From IMG/VR virus record IMGVR_UViG_3300042880_001026, positions 1 through 49,782 of that record: 49,782 nucleotides of DNA; one strand, written 5' to 3'. Positions 3,526 to 30,086 of the stretch are shown here, one piece after another (the stretch's first letter is position 1; each line of letters starts with the position of its first letter). The notes under the pieces are model-generated. The model saw only the letters and a program-made list of their open reading frames with translations, did no database searches and had not been told where the DNA came from. This DNA is from a virus. The position numbers were made by a program, and so were the translations under genes.

Positions 3526-4992
3526 ATGGAGATAAGCACCCGAAACTGGATAGAAAACTTTAAAAAAGGGCAAATGTATGATAACGGATCTAGTTATTTT
3601 AGCACCTCAAACTATAGTTTTGATGTAAATAGCTATGGCGTACAAACCGATACAAGGTTTGATCCACAGACTGTCACTGCTCTTGCAATGGCTGAGCCTG
3701 TGTTCATCGGGATTTTTACCAAAATTGCTAATGCCATCAAAAGTTTAGACAAAAGTGTCTATGAAGTAGATGAAGTAGATAAATCTGGCGTACCCGTTAA
3801 AACTAAAAAAGCCAAAAAATTATACAAATGGCTTAAAGAAGCTGGAATGGAAAAAGTTTTAGAAAAAATGCTTGTCTCAGCTTTTGGCACTGGAATGGGA
3901 GGTGGGGTTTGTTTCCCAACTAAGAAAAACGGCAGACTGGTTTTTAGGTTTGAACCATATATTGTAGAAGGAAGGACAAGGGTTGGCTTTTATGGAGACG
4001 ATGGAATTAATAACGAAATCACAAAAGTTGTAATTTTAGATCAGTATGCACAAGAAATCCCGGACTATACTTTTGAAGGTTCGAGACTAAAGAAATATGT
4101 TTATCACTTTCAGTATGTCAACCCAAACGGGACTGAAGGTTTTGGATCAAATGGCTTGATTGGAGCAATGCGGGCAATGTCTTTAAGAAGGGCTTTTGAC
4201 CAGACTAACGAAGCCATGGCAAAAAATGGAATGAAGCAAAGCTTAATTGCTTCTTTAGATGGAAAAGCAATGAGTGAAGCTGGGTTAAGTCCAAAAGAGA
4301 TTGTAGATAGCCGAGTTAAAGCTAAGGAATTATTGCAAAATAATACAGGAATTAGAAATGCTGGCGGTGTGATGTTTATAGACTTACCATTAAATCTTAA
4401 AGAAATTTCCTTAAATAACTCACAAAACAGAACAATAGAATACAAAAAAGCAATTGAAGAGGATCTTTGGCTAACAATGGCAATGGATAAAGCAAACTGG
4501 CTTGGAGGGAATGCTAAATATTCTAACTTGGAAGAAATCTCTGACAACCAGTTAAAAGATTTAAGGTGGGTTTTAAAGTGTATTCATAATATGTTTGAGT
4601 GGTGCTTGTCTTTCCACCCAGAATACGAGGAAGGTCGATTTATTTTTAGGACAGCGAGAGAAGTTACAGCTGAAGAAATTAAAATAAGAGAAGCTAAATT
4701 AAAGGAACTAGCAATGTATGCTAATAATCTCAAAATTCTAAACGAAACCTTTAGCTCGCTTGGTCATAGTGTATTGCCTACCGAAGAGAAAATGGCAACT
4801 ATGCTTACTCAAGGCATGCTTTGGCACAAAACCTCAGAGCCTATAATTCTCAAGCCTGCCGACACTGACGGGGTGGCAGATGACTTCACCCAAATTACAA
4901 GTGCTGAGTCAATAAATCGTAGCAAGCCCGACTTTATGGACAATCTAAGAAAAAGAGTTAATAAAAGTTTTGAAAGTGTTTTAAATTCTTAA
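3526..4992 (+). CDS. Portal protein
   Basis: 488 aa. It forms the dodecameric ring at the capsid vertex through which DNA enters and to which the connector binds. Features match phage portal proteins of the HK97/SPP1 type: an N-terminal segment ending in an Ala/Glu-rich stretch (ALAMAEPVFIGIFTKIA), a central alpha/beta body, a run GSNGLIGAMRAMSLRRAFDQ resembling the portal stem region, and a helical C-terminus. The position immediately after terL is canonical. The capsid gene is not downstream but on the opposite strand at the other end of the window, which is unusual. Confidence 0.9.
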   Translation: MEISTRNWIENFKKGQMYDNGSSYFSTSNYSFDVNSYGVQTDTRFDPQTVTALAMAEPVFIGIFTKIANAIKSLDKSVYEVDEVDKSGVPVKTKKAKKLYKWLKEAGMEKVLEKMLVSAFGTGMGGGVCFPTKKNGRLVFRFEPYIVEGRTRVGFYGDDGINNEITKVVILDQYAQEIPDYTFEGSRLKKYVYHFQYVNPNGTEGFGSNGLIGAMRAMSLRRAFDQTNEAMAKNGMKQSLIASLDGKAMSEAGLSPKEIVDSRVKAKELLQNNTGIRNAGGVMFIDLPLNLKEISLNNSQNRTIEYKKAIEEDLWLTMAMDKANWLGGNAKYSNLEEISDNQLKDLRWVLKCIHNMFEWCLSFHPEYEEGRFIFRTAREVTAEEIKIREAKLKELAMYANNLKILNETFSSLGHSVLPTEEKMATMLTQGMLWHKTSEPIILKPADTDGVADDFTQITSAESINRSKPDFMDNLRKRVNKSFESVLNS

Positions 4993-10694: not shown

Positions 10695-10714
10695 TTTAAA
10701 AATAGGGGATAGAT

Positions 10715-11041
10715 ATGAATAAATTTTTTATTATTACACCGGAAATTGCTAGGGCTCTCGAGATGGCAACTGGTATCAGTGCGGAGAAAGCTCGTCAGCA
10801 GGGATGCGAAGGCGTCACCTCATTTTGGTGGAGCGTTGTACGTCACCCAGACGGAGAGCAGGCCGCACTGGCAATACATGACGCACCAGAAGCAAGCGAG
10901 ATTGCAATCGGCGACCAATCGGCAGTGCCGAACATCGTGTATCAAAACGGCGACCTCGTTATCACGACCGACGATTTAATCGACGAGCTGCCAGCGGATT
11001 GGCATACGGTTGATCCTAGTGCAGATGCACCAAGGAGGTAA
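10715..11041 (+). CDS. Spike-associated hypothetical protein, 108 aa
   Basis: GC-rich gene downstream of the imported spike. It has a Shine-Dalgarno-like AGGGGAT about 9 nt before ATG, rare in this genome and consistent with transfer from an SD-using phage or bacterium. The protein begins MNKFFIITPEIARALEMATG and is acidic at the C-terminus; no membrane segment. It may act in fibre assembly or folding, by analogy with genes often placed after phage fibre genes. Confidence 0.65.
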   Translation: MNKFFIITPEIARALEMATGISAEKARQQGCEGVTSFWWSVVRHPDGEQAALAIHDAPEASEIAIGDQSAVPNIVYQNGDLVITTDDLIDELPADWHTVDPSADAPRR

Positions 11042-15990: not shown

Positions 15991-16638
15991 TTAAAAGGGC
16001 ATTACGGTTGTGATTTCATCGACATTAATTTCTGGCATTTCTAAGTTTACACTTTTAGAAACTTCAGCTTGCAAAGATATTTCAAAAGGGTCTTTGTTTA
16101 ATTCCATAGCTTTTAAATTTACTGGTTTAGAATTAATAATTTCTAATTCTTCTTGTGTTAATTCTCTGTTGTCATCAGTTATTAACTGATAGTCAATTTT
16201 AGTTTTATTGCCTGTTTTTGTAGTAGTTTTGGTAATTTGAATGTCAAATTTAGTCCAGTCATTTTTAACTTTACCAGTTGCAATAGCAAACAAATTTTTT
16301 CTTAAAGTAGCTTGTGTAATTTCCCAAATTTGAACATCTTGGGTATCAATATTTAATATTTTAACAGCCCAAACTAATTTTATGGGGTTTTCATTTTCAA
16401 AAGTTACTTTTAATTTTAAATCTTTTGGAGCAGTTGGAATTGTTCCATCTCCTTTATCTTGTAAGATTAGTTTCTTGCTTTGACCTTCAGCTGGGTTTTC
16501 GATAAAGGCTCTAAAATATGTAAGAACTTCATTTTTAGGAGTTAAAATTCTAAAAACATAAGATCCGTCTTCTGAGAATTTTAAAAAGTTAGATTGTGCG
16601 GATGGTTCACGGTAGCCTGTAGCGAATGGGTTGGACAT
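15991..16638 (-). CDS. Probable single-stranded DNA-binding protein
   Basis: 215 aa from MSNPFATGYREPS (16638); an upstream in-frame ATG would lie inside the structured RNA. The N-terminus (NFLKFSEDGSYVFRILTP) and the acidic C-terminus (LEMPEINVDEITTVMPF) resemble phage SSBs that bind ssDNA through a beta-barrel and recruit partners through an acidic tail ending in a hydrophobic residue. Lying in the replication region beside helicase and initiator supports this. Its leader carries the tRNA-like array. Confidence 0.6.
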   Translation of the reverse strand: MSNPFATGYREPSAQSNFLKFSEDGSYVFRILTPKNEVLTYFRAFIENPAEGQSKKLILQDKGDGTIPTAPKDLKLKVTFENENPIKLVWAVKILNIDTQDVQIWEITQATLRKNLFAIATGKVKNDWTKFDIQITKTTTKTGNKTKIDYQLITDDNRELTQEELEIINSKPVNLKAMELNKDPFEISLQAEVSKSVNLEMPEINVDEITTVMPF

Positions 16639-16673
16639 AAAAATATGTAAAAATAAAAATTTAGCATTAAAAG

Positions 16674-16789
16674 CTAAAATCTGGAGGCAAGAGACTTGCA
16701 CTCTTGCAAAGAACCCACTCTAGATCTCGGTGCCGTTCTAGCATGTACGCCAGTTGCTTGTGTTTATATTTCACCACTCCAGATTTTAG
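16674..16789 (-). ncRNA. Long-helix tRNA-like element (element B)
   Basis: Perfect 13-bp arms CTAAAATCTGGAG (16674-16686) and CTCCAGATTTTAG (16777-16789), with weaker pairing beyond. Directly abutting is a 7-bp hairpin with a 7-nt loop (16687-16707; loop TGCAAGT on the minus strand, T-loop-like). The 5' part on the minus strand (GTGGTGAAATATAAACACA) resembles a tRNA-Leu D-arm that has lost its GG. The internal region does not form a normal anticodon arm. It shares flanks with element A (CAGCTTGAA...TAAAATCTG; AAGCAA[A]CT). Confidence 0.55.
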
Positions 16790-16806
16790 ATTTCAAGCTG
16801 TAAAGG

Positions 16807-16869
16807 TGGACAAGGCAGGAATCGAACCTGCGACCTCCCGTCGGTACTCTACCATTGAGCTACTTGTCC
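16807..16869 (-). tRNA. tRNA-like gene with truncated anticodon arm (63 nt)
   Basis: On the minus strand: acceptor GGACAAG/CTTGTCC, TA, D-arm GCTC-AATGGTA-GAGT, T-arm GCAGG-TTCGATT-CCTGC, discriminator A. These are all canonical. Only 14 nt (ACCGACGGGAGGTC) separate D- and T-arms instead of about 22-23, so a 5-bp anticodon stem plus 7-nt loop cannot be formed. A 3-bp ACC/GGT stem with loop GACGGGA is the best alternative, lacking U33. Amino-acid identity cannot be assigned. CCA is not encoded. Confidence 0.6.
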
Positions 16870-16876
16870 ATTTAGG

Positions 16877-16961
16877 TGAGCTGGGGAGGGGTCGAACCTA
16901 CACCAAAAGATTGCTTTTTATTTTCATCTTGCAAGAAGTGCTACCATTACACTACCAGCTC
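16877..16961 (-). tRNA. tRNA-like gene with aberrant anticodon/variable region (85 nt)
   Basis: Minus strand: acceptor GAGCTGG/CCAGCTC (7 bp), TA, D-arm GTGTAATGGTAGCAC, T-arm GTAGG-TTCGACC-CCTCC (one mismatch), discriminator A. The 36 nt between D- and T-arms match a type II (long variable arm) length, with AAAAG-CAAT-CTTTT as variable stem. The best anticodon arm (TTCTT/GAAAA, loop GCAAGAT) has a C-A mismatch and C at position 33, so decoding is doubtful. Identity not assigned. Confidence 0.6.
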
Positions 16962-16994: not shown

Positions 16995-17207
16995 TTAATC
17001 AGTTACAGGATTCCCAAGTAAAAAATCTAAAAAGTCACAACCATAAATAATAGTTTCTCCAGATTTATTCATTGTCATTGTTTGACCGATCATGAATTTC
17101 CAGAATTTCTGCATTTGTGCTTCGTCTTTGTTTAAATATTCAAAGATTTCTGCCTTAGTCCAATTTTTGTAATAGATTTCTTTTTTCTGTTGTTTGGTTA
17201 GGGTCAT
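16995..17207 (-). CDS. Small hypothetical protein, 70 aa
   Basis: Start at MTLTKQQKKEI (17207), with the upstream in-frame ATG overlapping the membrane-protein gene. N-terminal basic helix and a conserved-looking WTKAEIFEYLNKDEAQMQKFW segment. It is the last gene before the tRNA-like array and likely co-transcribed with it. Confidence 0.55.
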   Translation of the reverse strand: MTLTKQQKKEIYYKNWTKAEIFEYLNKDEAQMQKFWKFMIGQTMTMNKSGETIIYGCDFLDFLLGNPVTD

Positions 17208-28513: not shown

Positions 28514-28804
28514 ATGCAAAAAATGCTTAAAACTGACAGGCAAACTCGACCAAACATTCAAGAAAGCCAAACCCTTAAAAGGCTTAGAAAAATGCCTCAA
28601 AATGATTTTGTAAAATATGTTAAAGAGTCTTATTATGACTACCAAGCTAATAAACATTTAGATAAATCAAAAACCCCTGCTAACTGTAAATGCAGAGGTG
28701 GAATATTATATAAAGGTTTTGGTAAAACCCCTAATGGTAAAATAGTTTATTACGATCATGCTGACCCAAATTGTCCAGTTATACCTCAATTTCGAACTAA
28801 ATAA
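28514..28804 (+). CDS. Hypothetical protein with possible Zn site, 96 aa
   Basis: The C-terminal region has CKCRGGILY...YYDHADPNC, a Cys2-His-Cys arrangement that could bind zinc. N-terminal half is basic and helical. It lies 1 nt before the RNA ligase gene, so a role with RNA repair is possible but unproven. Confidence 0.55.
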   Translation: MQKMLKTDRQTRPNIQESQTLKRLRKMPQNDFVKYVKESYYDYQANKHLDKSKTPANCKCRGGILYKGFGKTPNGKIVYYDHADPNCPVIPQFRTK

Positions 28805-28805
28805 T

Positions 28806-30086
28806 ATGTCCCGCAAACTAGCAACAATCCAAACAATCAAAGAACTTTTACCAATTCCAGGAGCAGACTCGATCGAGCTTGCAACCTTCGAAAATATAGG
28901 CTGGAAATGTGTAGTCAAAAAAGATGAATTTCAGATTGGAGACAAAGCCGTTTATTTCGAAATTGACAGTCTTTTACCCTTGACTCCAACCTTTGAGTTT
29001 CTAGCTAAAGGAAATACCCCTAAAAAAATGACTTTAGACGGCGGGGAAGTTGTAGAAGGTTATAGGTTAAAAACTGTTAAACTTAGAGGGCAACTTAGCC
29101 AAGGTTTGGCTTTGCCTATTGCTAGAGTATTTTTAAGTAACCACAAATACGAAATAATAATCAAAGAAAGCCTAGCAAAACCTAGAATTACAGTTACCCC
29201 AGATAGAGTAACTTTAAAGTTCCAATCTGAAGAGCAAAGAAAGCAAAAAGAGTTTATAGCTTTAGGCTTTGTAGTAGATATTTTAGCAAATAATAAAGTT
29301 TTACAATCATATAGAAAAGCGGACGATTTTGATGACTCTGAAATAGTTTTATTTTCTGATAAAAACGATAAGCATATCCACGCCACAAACTTTTTTCAAG
29401 ATAACAACGAGGATTTATCCGAAATTTTAAACATCTACAAATACGAGCCACCTATCAGCCCAGAGCTAGCAGGAATTGCAAAAGGCAACTTCCCAAGTTT
29501 TATACCCAAAACAGATGAAACTAGAATACAGAACTGTTGGAATATGGTGCAAAAATACAAAGATTTAAGTTGGTATGCAAGCATAAAATATGACGGCACT
29601 TCCGCTACTTTTTACAAAAAAGATGGTGAATTTGGAGCTTGTAGCCGTAATTTAGAGCTAAAAGAAACTGAGTCAAATACATTTTGGCAAATTGCAAACA
29701 AGTTTGATCTAAAAAACAAGCTTCCTGAAGGTTTTGCAATTCAAGGTGAGATCTACGGCGAGGGAATCCAAAAAAACCCACACAAAATAAAAGGTACTGA
29801 TTTTAGGGTGTTTAATGTTTATGATATAAATGAAGGAAAGTATTTGGATTTTCAAGATATTCATAAATTTGTAGAAAAAATTGGAGTAAAATTTGTATCT
29901 AGGTTTTATTGTACAACAGGCATTTCCCCTGACTTATCAAATTTAACCATGCAAGAGTTGCTAGATTTAGCAGACGAAACAGAGCTTGAAGGTTTAGTTT
30001 TTAGACCATTACAAGAAATAAATGACCCAAACTTTGGTCGGGTAAGTTTTAAAGTAATTTCAAATAAATATTTGCTTAAAAATTAA
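28806..30086 (+). CDS. RNA ligase, DraRnl (Rnl5)-like
   Basis: 426 aa from MSRKLATIQTIKELLPIPGA (28806). Residues 1-105 form an OB-type N-terminal module typical of the Deinococcus-type RNA ligase family (GADSIELATFENIGWKCVVK). The nucleotidyltransferase domain has the adenylated Lys at about 261 (SIKYDGTSATFY), then QGEIYGEG, LEGLVFRP and SFKVISNKYL, matching ligase motifs I-V. These enzymes seal 3'-OH/5'-phosphate RNA nicks. Between the two domains (about 108-205) is an extra segment of roughly 90 residues. May repair cleaved tRNAs. Confidence 0.82.
   Translation: MSRKLATIQTIKELLPIPGADSIELATFENIGWKCVVKKDEFQIGDKAVYFEIDSLLPLTPTFEFLAKGNTPKKMTLDGGEVVEGYRLKTVKLRGQLSQGLALPIARVFLSNHKYEIIIKESLAKPRITVTPDRVTLKFQSEEQRKQKEFIALGFVVDILANNKVLQSYRKADDFDDSEIVLFSDKNDKHIHATNFFQDNNEDLSEILNIYKYEPPISPELAGIAKGNFPSFIPKTDETRIQNCWNMVQKYKDLSWYASIKYDGTSATFYKKDGEFGACSRNLELKETESNTFWQIANKFDLKNKLPEGFAIQGEIYGEGIQKNPHKIKGTDFRVFNVYDINEGKYLDFQDIHKFVEKIGVKFVSRFYCTTGISPDLSNLTMQELLDLADETELEGLVFRPLQEINDPNFGRVSFKVISNKYLLKN

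Follow-up and report, generated by a model that had tools for sequence, protein, structure and literature searches.

Known tRNA-Like RNAs and an Armless Phage Gene

Gene 1 is a 63-nucleotide (nt) RNA gene without an anticodon arm, found in a 49,782-base virus record (IMG/VR virus record IMGVR_UViG_3300042880_001026, positions 1 to 49,782; this whole stretch is referred to as the window). Its closest described counterparts are the transfer RNA (tRNA) genes encoded by phages, which resemble the armless RNA class delineated here in having acceptor, D, and T arms and in the way they are placed and oriented in the genome. However, the armless RNA has lost the arm that carries the anticodon and cannot decode. 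The survey presented below favours, although tentatively, a reading in which gene 1 would be a member of a widespread and previously unnamed class of phage RNAs and would work, for the benefit of the phage, as a non-decoding mimic of the acceptor and elbow of a tRNA.

Other known RNAs offer partial parallels. The bacterial Y RNA (YrlA) contains a module that mimics tRNA and has a D and a T arm while lacking the anticodon arm, and its ends form the Ro-binding stem, whereas in the armless class the 5' and 3' ends form an acceptor and may carry CCA; no Rfam Y RNA family gave a match on the window, where the search was not aimed at a Ro-binding stem or a Ro60 gene. The mascRNA of MALAT1, a tRNA-like RNA of about 61 nt that is cut out by RNase P and Z, is similarly small, but it is eukaryotic, unrelated, and keeps a small anticodon-like arm. 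Transfer-messenger RNA (tmRNA) has a messenger RNA (mRNA)-like module and a reduced D arm, whereas members of the class have a full D stem in an RNA of about 57-63 nt; in the window, no tmRNA was found by Rfam at its gathering score or by ARAGORN, nor any mRNA-like module or tag peptide. The tRNA-like domain of tmRNA, which lacks an anticodon (PMC3985003), is like the class in amounting to the upper half of a tRNA, and a subset of the class shares alanine identity with it. Truncated or armless mitochondrial tRNAs, which have lost the D or the T arm and kept the anticodon (PMC7609411), are also minimal molecules with an arm missing, but the class is the reverse case, since it is the anticodon arm that is lost.

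Traces of such RNAs already exist in phage records. In Polaribacter phages Danklef_1-5, a 58-nt gene annotated as 'tRNA-OTHER, Undet (NNN)' has exactly the armless design, with the linker TTTAGGTC, but it was recorded only as an undetermined tRNA, with no class or function described. Lactobacillus phage JNU_P2 has an unannotated short-arm version, at a locus that in a related prophage contig is occupied by an armless one. Moreover, the genome note of Arthrobacter phage Windest reports a tRNA with an undetermined anticodon (PMC12933202). A search of open literature, subscription journals and preprints aside, yielded no account of an armless phage tRNA class.

Structure of Gene 1

Gene 1 and its parts are located as follows:

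16807..16869, minus strand: gene 1, tRNA-like RNA without an anticodon arm, 63 nt (Rfam tRNA model)
16869-16863/16814-16808, minus strand: acceptor of gene 1
16860-16846, minus strand: D arm of gene 1
16832..16845, minus strand: 14-nt linker ACCGACGGGAGGUC, replacing the anticodon arm and variable loop (direct reading and alignment with a Xanthomonas phage tRNA-Asn)
16831-16815, minus strand: T arm of gene 1
16807, minus strand: discriminator A

All 16 of its 16 stem pairs are intact, including 7/7 base pairs (bp) in the acceptor, the 4-bp D stem GCTC/GAGT, and 5/5 in the T stem; the D loop contains GG and the T loop reads TTCGATT. The D and T stems are joined by 14 nt, ACCGACGGGAGGTC, and the Rfam tRNA model, which scores gene 1 at 56.4 bits (cut-off 29, E 1.4e-9), aligns the anticodon arm as a deletion, while ARAGORN makes no call. 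According to Rfam, gene 1 and the neighbouring gene 2 both have the acceptor, D and T arms of a canonical tRNA with the elbow consensus. The 5-bp anticodon stem, 7-nt loop, and U33 of a canonical tRNA are missing from gene 1, which has no arm, and it presents instead the features that define the armless class, namely a 7-bp acceptor, D and T arms (4 and 5 bp), and no decoding arm. A first-pass annotation, made from the letters alone, had described two tandem tRNA-like genes with perfect 7-bp acceptors, D arms, and TTCGA-type T loops, one of them 63 nt long with 14 nt in place of the anticodon arm and variable region. All of this holds; both genes lie on the minus strand, and the Rfam E-values exclude chance.

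A Class of Armless tRNAs in Viruses

IMG/VR was scanned with patterns in which the D and T arms stand too few nucleotides apart and from which the acceptor was omitted. The counts from the scan for 21-24-nt gaps are lower bounds, and pattern matches without a paired acceptor were not counted, including tRNAs with a 121-nt match (L083, L123). In the shortest-gap scans, the acceptor is paired at 7/7 positions in 85 of 146 unique matches, against 1.3 when the 3' strands were re-dealt; pooling the shortest- and longer-gap scans gives at least 171 unique RNAs in which 6 or more acceptor positions pair, and these have at least 151 different acceptor sequences on the 5' side. When 84,980 bacterial and archaeal genomes were scanned with a similar pattern, 21 contigs were hit, only about five of them with a paired acceptor, and thus the class is mainly viral.

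Among the matches listed, the linker has a bimodal length, of either 8-11 nt, without an arm, or 18-21 nt, with few in between. Hairpins of at least 5 bp occur in 38 of the 61 longer-linker members, compared with 14.6 in shuffles, and the loop has 3-6 nt in 46 of the 51 longer-linker members that reach 4 bp, a 7-nt loop being present in 3. CCA is encoded in 21 of the 171, about 8 times chance. Moreover, the Levitt pair 15:48 of the tertiary core covaries, being G:C in 71 cases, A:T in 17, and other in 5 (Fisher p 2.6e-15; 7e-13 after clustering), and an independent scan with a different D stem gave G:C 10, A:T 5, G:T 1, and A:C 0. An ordinary tRNA is absent from 67 of the 107 class loci of at least 8 kilobases (kb).

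Homologous loci provide further evidence. Compensatory changes were found in the acceptor in three pairs of loci (L094/L131, L086/L154, and L100/L166) and in a tetraloop hairpin in a fourth (L258/L278). A single 180-kb virus record holds three paralogous armless tRNAs (L012:2052-2113, 3556-3610, and 10701-10761) whose acceptors also differ by compensatory changes, from AGCGATG/CATCGCT to AACGATG/CATCGTT. In another pair (L132:2869-2926 and L184:2747-2804), the loci are near-identical in the flanks and the rest of the RNA, and several acceptor positions are changed on both strands, two pairs being fully compensated; the acceptor stem has in effect been exchanged with its pairing kept, which suggests a diversifying pressure on the acceptor. 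Acceptor pairing, 15:48 covariation, bimodal linkers, and compensatory changes together argue for selection and not random decay. Thus, as judged from sequence, selection has preserved the acceptor helix, the D and T arms, and the tertiary core in many unrelated phages, with the anticodon arm absent or present as a short hairpin, and a molecule of the armless form cannot decode.

Gene 1 itself is more likely than not a functional member of this class, but several observations weigh against this or against the proposed role. Its Levitt pair is A-C, which is not complementary; complementarity at 15:48 is typical of the class without strictly defining it, as 88 of 93 armless members are complementary and A-C is also found in 9 of 61 short-arm members. 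Its 14-nt linker falls in a sparse part of the length spectrum of the class. In addition, both known close relatives of the phage (two IMG/VR contigs, about 97% identical) lack gene 1, which therefore shows neither conservation nor compensatory change within its own lineage; the first-pass annotation had looked to relatives for such changes. Finally, the genes beside class members share no theme that would name a target, the PHROGs, PADLOC, and Pfam matches being mixed.

Some of these observations are what would be expected if gene 1 were a functionless tRNA-Asn that had recently lost its anticodon loop through a short deletion, gene 2 being likewise a pseudogene. The closest annotated phage tRNA found by BLAST is indeed a tRNA-Asn from a Xanthomonas phage, 75% identical and with a gap at the anticodon loop, and gene 1 looks like a tRNA-Asn from which that loop has been excised. 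Its A15-C48 mismatch, its absence from the two relatives, and the degenerate class II gene in their gene 2 slot would agree with decay as well. However, a decaying gene with 16/16 stem pairs intact is not what this explanation would lead one to expect and, for the class as a whole, decay fails to explain the covariation, the bimodal lengths, the solitary copies, or the compensatory changes. Decay is thus regarded as unlikely.

Possible Roles of the Armless RNA

In the favoured reading, that of a non-decoding mimic, the armless RNA would be transcribed together with the adjacent genes, after which RNase P and RNase Z would trim it and CCA would be added. It could then engage enzymes whose recognition is confined to the acceptor and the elbow, either by occupying them or by being charged, and act as a decoy or competitor in host take-over or counter-defence. 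G3-U70 is present in 13 of 91 armless acceptors, compared with 4 of 296 ordinary non-Ala tRNAs of the same contigs, and a subset has the alanine identity set G1-C72, G2-C71, and G3-U70, mostly with A73. Alanyl-tRNA synthetase (AlaRS) does not need the anticodon and, therefore, could charge this alanine-type subset. More speculatively, many phage lineages might independently keep non-decoding tRNAs, either armless or with a hairpin of 3-6-nt loop, that serve as RNA effectors. Host or defence enzymes that recognise the acceptor and elbow would be trapped or hijacked by them, and the tRNAs of the alanine type would be charged by AlaRS and withheld from decoding.

The main rival to the mimic is processing punctuation, in which the armless tRNA would be a mere cleavage signal whose excision by RNase P and Z gives the neighbouring mRNAs defined ends and leaves a harmless armless by-product. 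It is well established that RNase P and Z need the acceptor and the elbow, precisely the parts that are kept, and the acceptor sequences are nearly free to vary. The position of the genes would also suit such a signal, since the RNA lies on the strand of its co-directional flanking genes in 44 cases versus 7, and the three RNAs of the window (gene 2, gene 1, and a third structured element) are flanked on both sides by a gene of their own strand, the gaps measuring 7-35 nt. Nevertheless, ordinary phage tRNAs have the same strand bias (241 versus 27), so that strand and position cannot separate a mimic from punctuation. What punctuation leaves unexplained is the G3-U70 excess, and it would not predict the L132/L184 pair, where the changes concentrate in the acceptor and the flanks barely differ, which is unexpected for a neutral signal. 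It is mainly for these two reasons that the mimic or decoy is preferred and that pure punctuation is considered rather improbable.

The first-pass annotation had proposed that the genes could be decoys for host tRNA-targeting nucleases or synthetases, or else degenerate tRNAs, and had pointed to an RNA ligase of the same phage:

28758..30086, plus strand: RNA ligase (PF09414 and phrog_968)

The survey favours a non-decoding role such as that of a decoy, but not one aimed at anticodon nucleases. Several of these nucleases read the anticodon stem-loop itself, and an armless RNA would be a poor decoy for them, because that stem-loop is missing. Apart from the ligase at 28.8 kb in the window, little speaks for an RNA that is repaired or protected together with such an enzyme: an RNA_ligase family member scores above cut-off in only 7 of 50 armless-tRNA records, RtcB in 0 of 50, and T4-type Rnl1 in 2 of 50, these records being possibly fragments. 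The suggested link with the ligase is thus not supported, and a role as an anticodon-nuclease decoy is very improbable.

It could also be supposed that the phage uses a tRNA gene as its integration target and that the element is its attachment site (attP). This is plausible for the Lactococcus P335 group, where the phages L315, L316, L317, and L319-L326 have a near-invariant mini-arm tRNA (GGTTCTT...AAGAACCA), mostly unannotated, by the integrase or the end of the prophage record and followed by short direct repeats that resemble integrase arm sites; this subgroup may differ from the rest of the class. However, the 49.8-kb record of the window has no match to a tyrosine or serine recombinase (PF00589, PF00239), and a tyrosine integrase is absent from 33 of 50 armless-tRNA records, and only 2 of 50 have one at a distance of 3 kb or less. 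Moreover, the element includes the two halves of the acceptor, more than an attachment core requires. With no integrase in the record and integrases rarely near class members, an attachment-site origin was rejected for the window and in general, and its probability is put close to nil.

If the armless RNAs act, as the mimic reading proposes, on enzymes that bind the acceptor or the elbow, they would be phage RNA effectors of a new type and would offer a natural way of testing which enzymes and toxins directed at tRNA can dispense with the anticodon. Since tRNA finders discard such genes or label them undetermined, a common phage RNA type may have been overlooked. Isolates with class members, such as the Polaribacter Danklef phages and the Lactococcus P335 group, make the idea testable now.

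Gene 2 and the Surrounding Locus

The record belongs to a tailed phage, as it encodes a terminase, a portal, a tape measure, and a DnaB-type helicase, and it has no near nucleotide relative among 50,697 phage records (INPHARED). The three RNAs fall within 16.6-17.0 kb and are all encoded on the minus strand: gene 2 (16961-16877) comes first, followed by gene 1 (16869-16807) and the structured element (16795-16668). No third tRNA was called at the locus. Besides gene 1, the locus contains:

16995..17183, minus strand: small open reading frame upstream of the RNAs, mostly without a nucleotide match in either close relative
16877..16961, minus strand: gene 2, class II tRNA-like, 85 nt, ARAGORN tRNA-Leu(AAG) (ARAGORN and Rfam)
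16668..16795, minus strand: cloverleaf-like conserved structured RNA, fold z-score -3.64, kept in a close relative
15991..16635, minus strand: phrog_8542 gene of unknown function, the next gene downstream, without a nucleotide match in either close relative

Gene 2 scores 38.0 bits with the Rfam tRNA model and has 7/7 acceptor pairs, a D arm with GG, the T loop TTCGACC, and one U-C mismatch in the T stem. The first-pass annotation had counted 36 nt in its middle, with C at position 33, and both points stand; it had also taken the anticodon domain as abnormal, and a class II variable arm had been missed. ARAGORN resolves the 36 nt into a 17-nt anticodon arm followed by the variable arm AAAAG-CAAU-CUUUU. 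The anticodon arm has 4/5 stem pairs, with one C-A mismatch, and a 7-nt loop with C33 where a canonical tRNA has U33. The 5-bp/7-nt anticodon arm whose presence was to speak against the first-pass description is thus lacking in gene 1 and present in part in gene 2. Resolved into a near-normal anticodon arm and a class II variable arm, gene 2 is not armless and is probably a class II tRNA in decay or in rapid divergence. In the relatives, the gene 2 slot is filled by another class II tRNA-like sequence, whose acceptor stem, GAGCUGG/CCAGCUC, is unchanged (L005:7091-7180) and which ARAGORN calls tRNA-Stop(UUA), ochre, and Rfam leaves unscored; its D loop is short and its T loop has 8 nt.

The structured element at 16668-16795 has a long closing helix (13 bp unbroken), a hairpin loop UGCAAGU at the T-arm position, and no GG in the D-like loop, and it matches no Rfam family. 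A 157-nt stretch is identical in a close relative bar one inserted base, with the flanking genes replaced on both sides. Because the element is nearly unchanged while the genes around it differ, the RNA block reads as an island between swapped genes. A protein search with the phrog_8542 neighbour gene gave no match, nor did the exact DNA pattern of gene 1.

Other Observations

A match to gene 1 in Salmonella phage gmqsjt-1 was set aside, as by eye it is a degenerate tRNA in an unannotated gap. That gap (L312:4640-5515, 870 nt) contains both tRNA genes and degenerate tRNA fragments, upstream of the gene for the major tail protein. Twelve Bacteroidetes genome contigs (L061, L063-L068, L070, L073, L076, L078, and L080) have D and T arms joined by linkers such as AACAGAAAAC with only 2-5 acceptor positions paired, possibly a separate chromosomal tRNA-like RNA. 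The tRNA matches of about 121 nt at L083:11580-11700 and L123:754-875 contain a T-arm-like hairpin inside the anticodon region. In addition, a phage tmRNA (alpha_tmRNA/permuted; L109:1356-2052) is located no more than 400 nt from both an armless tRNA and a tRNA-Gly, and an abiF RNA motif (L120:1866-1965) lies 4 nt upstream of another armless tRNA.
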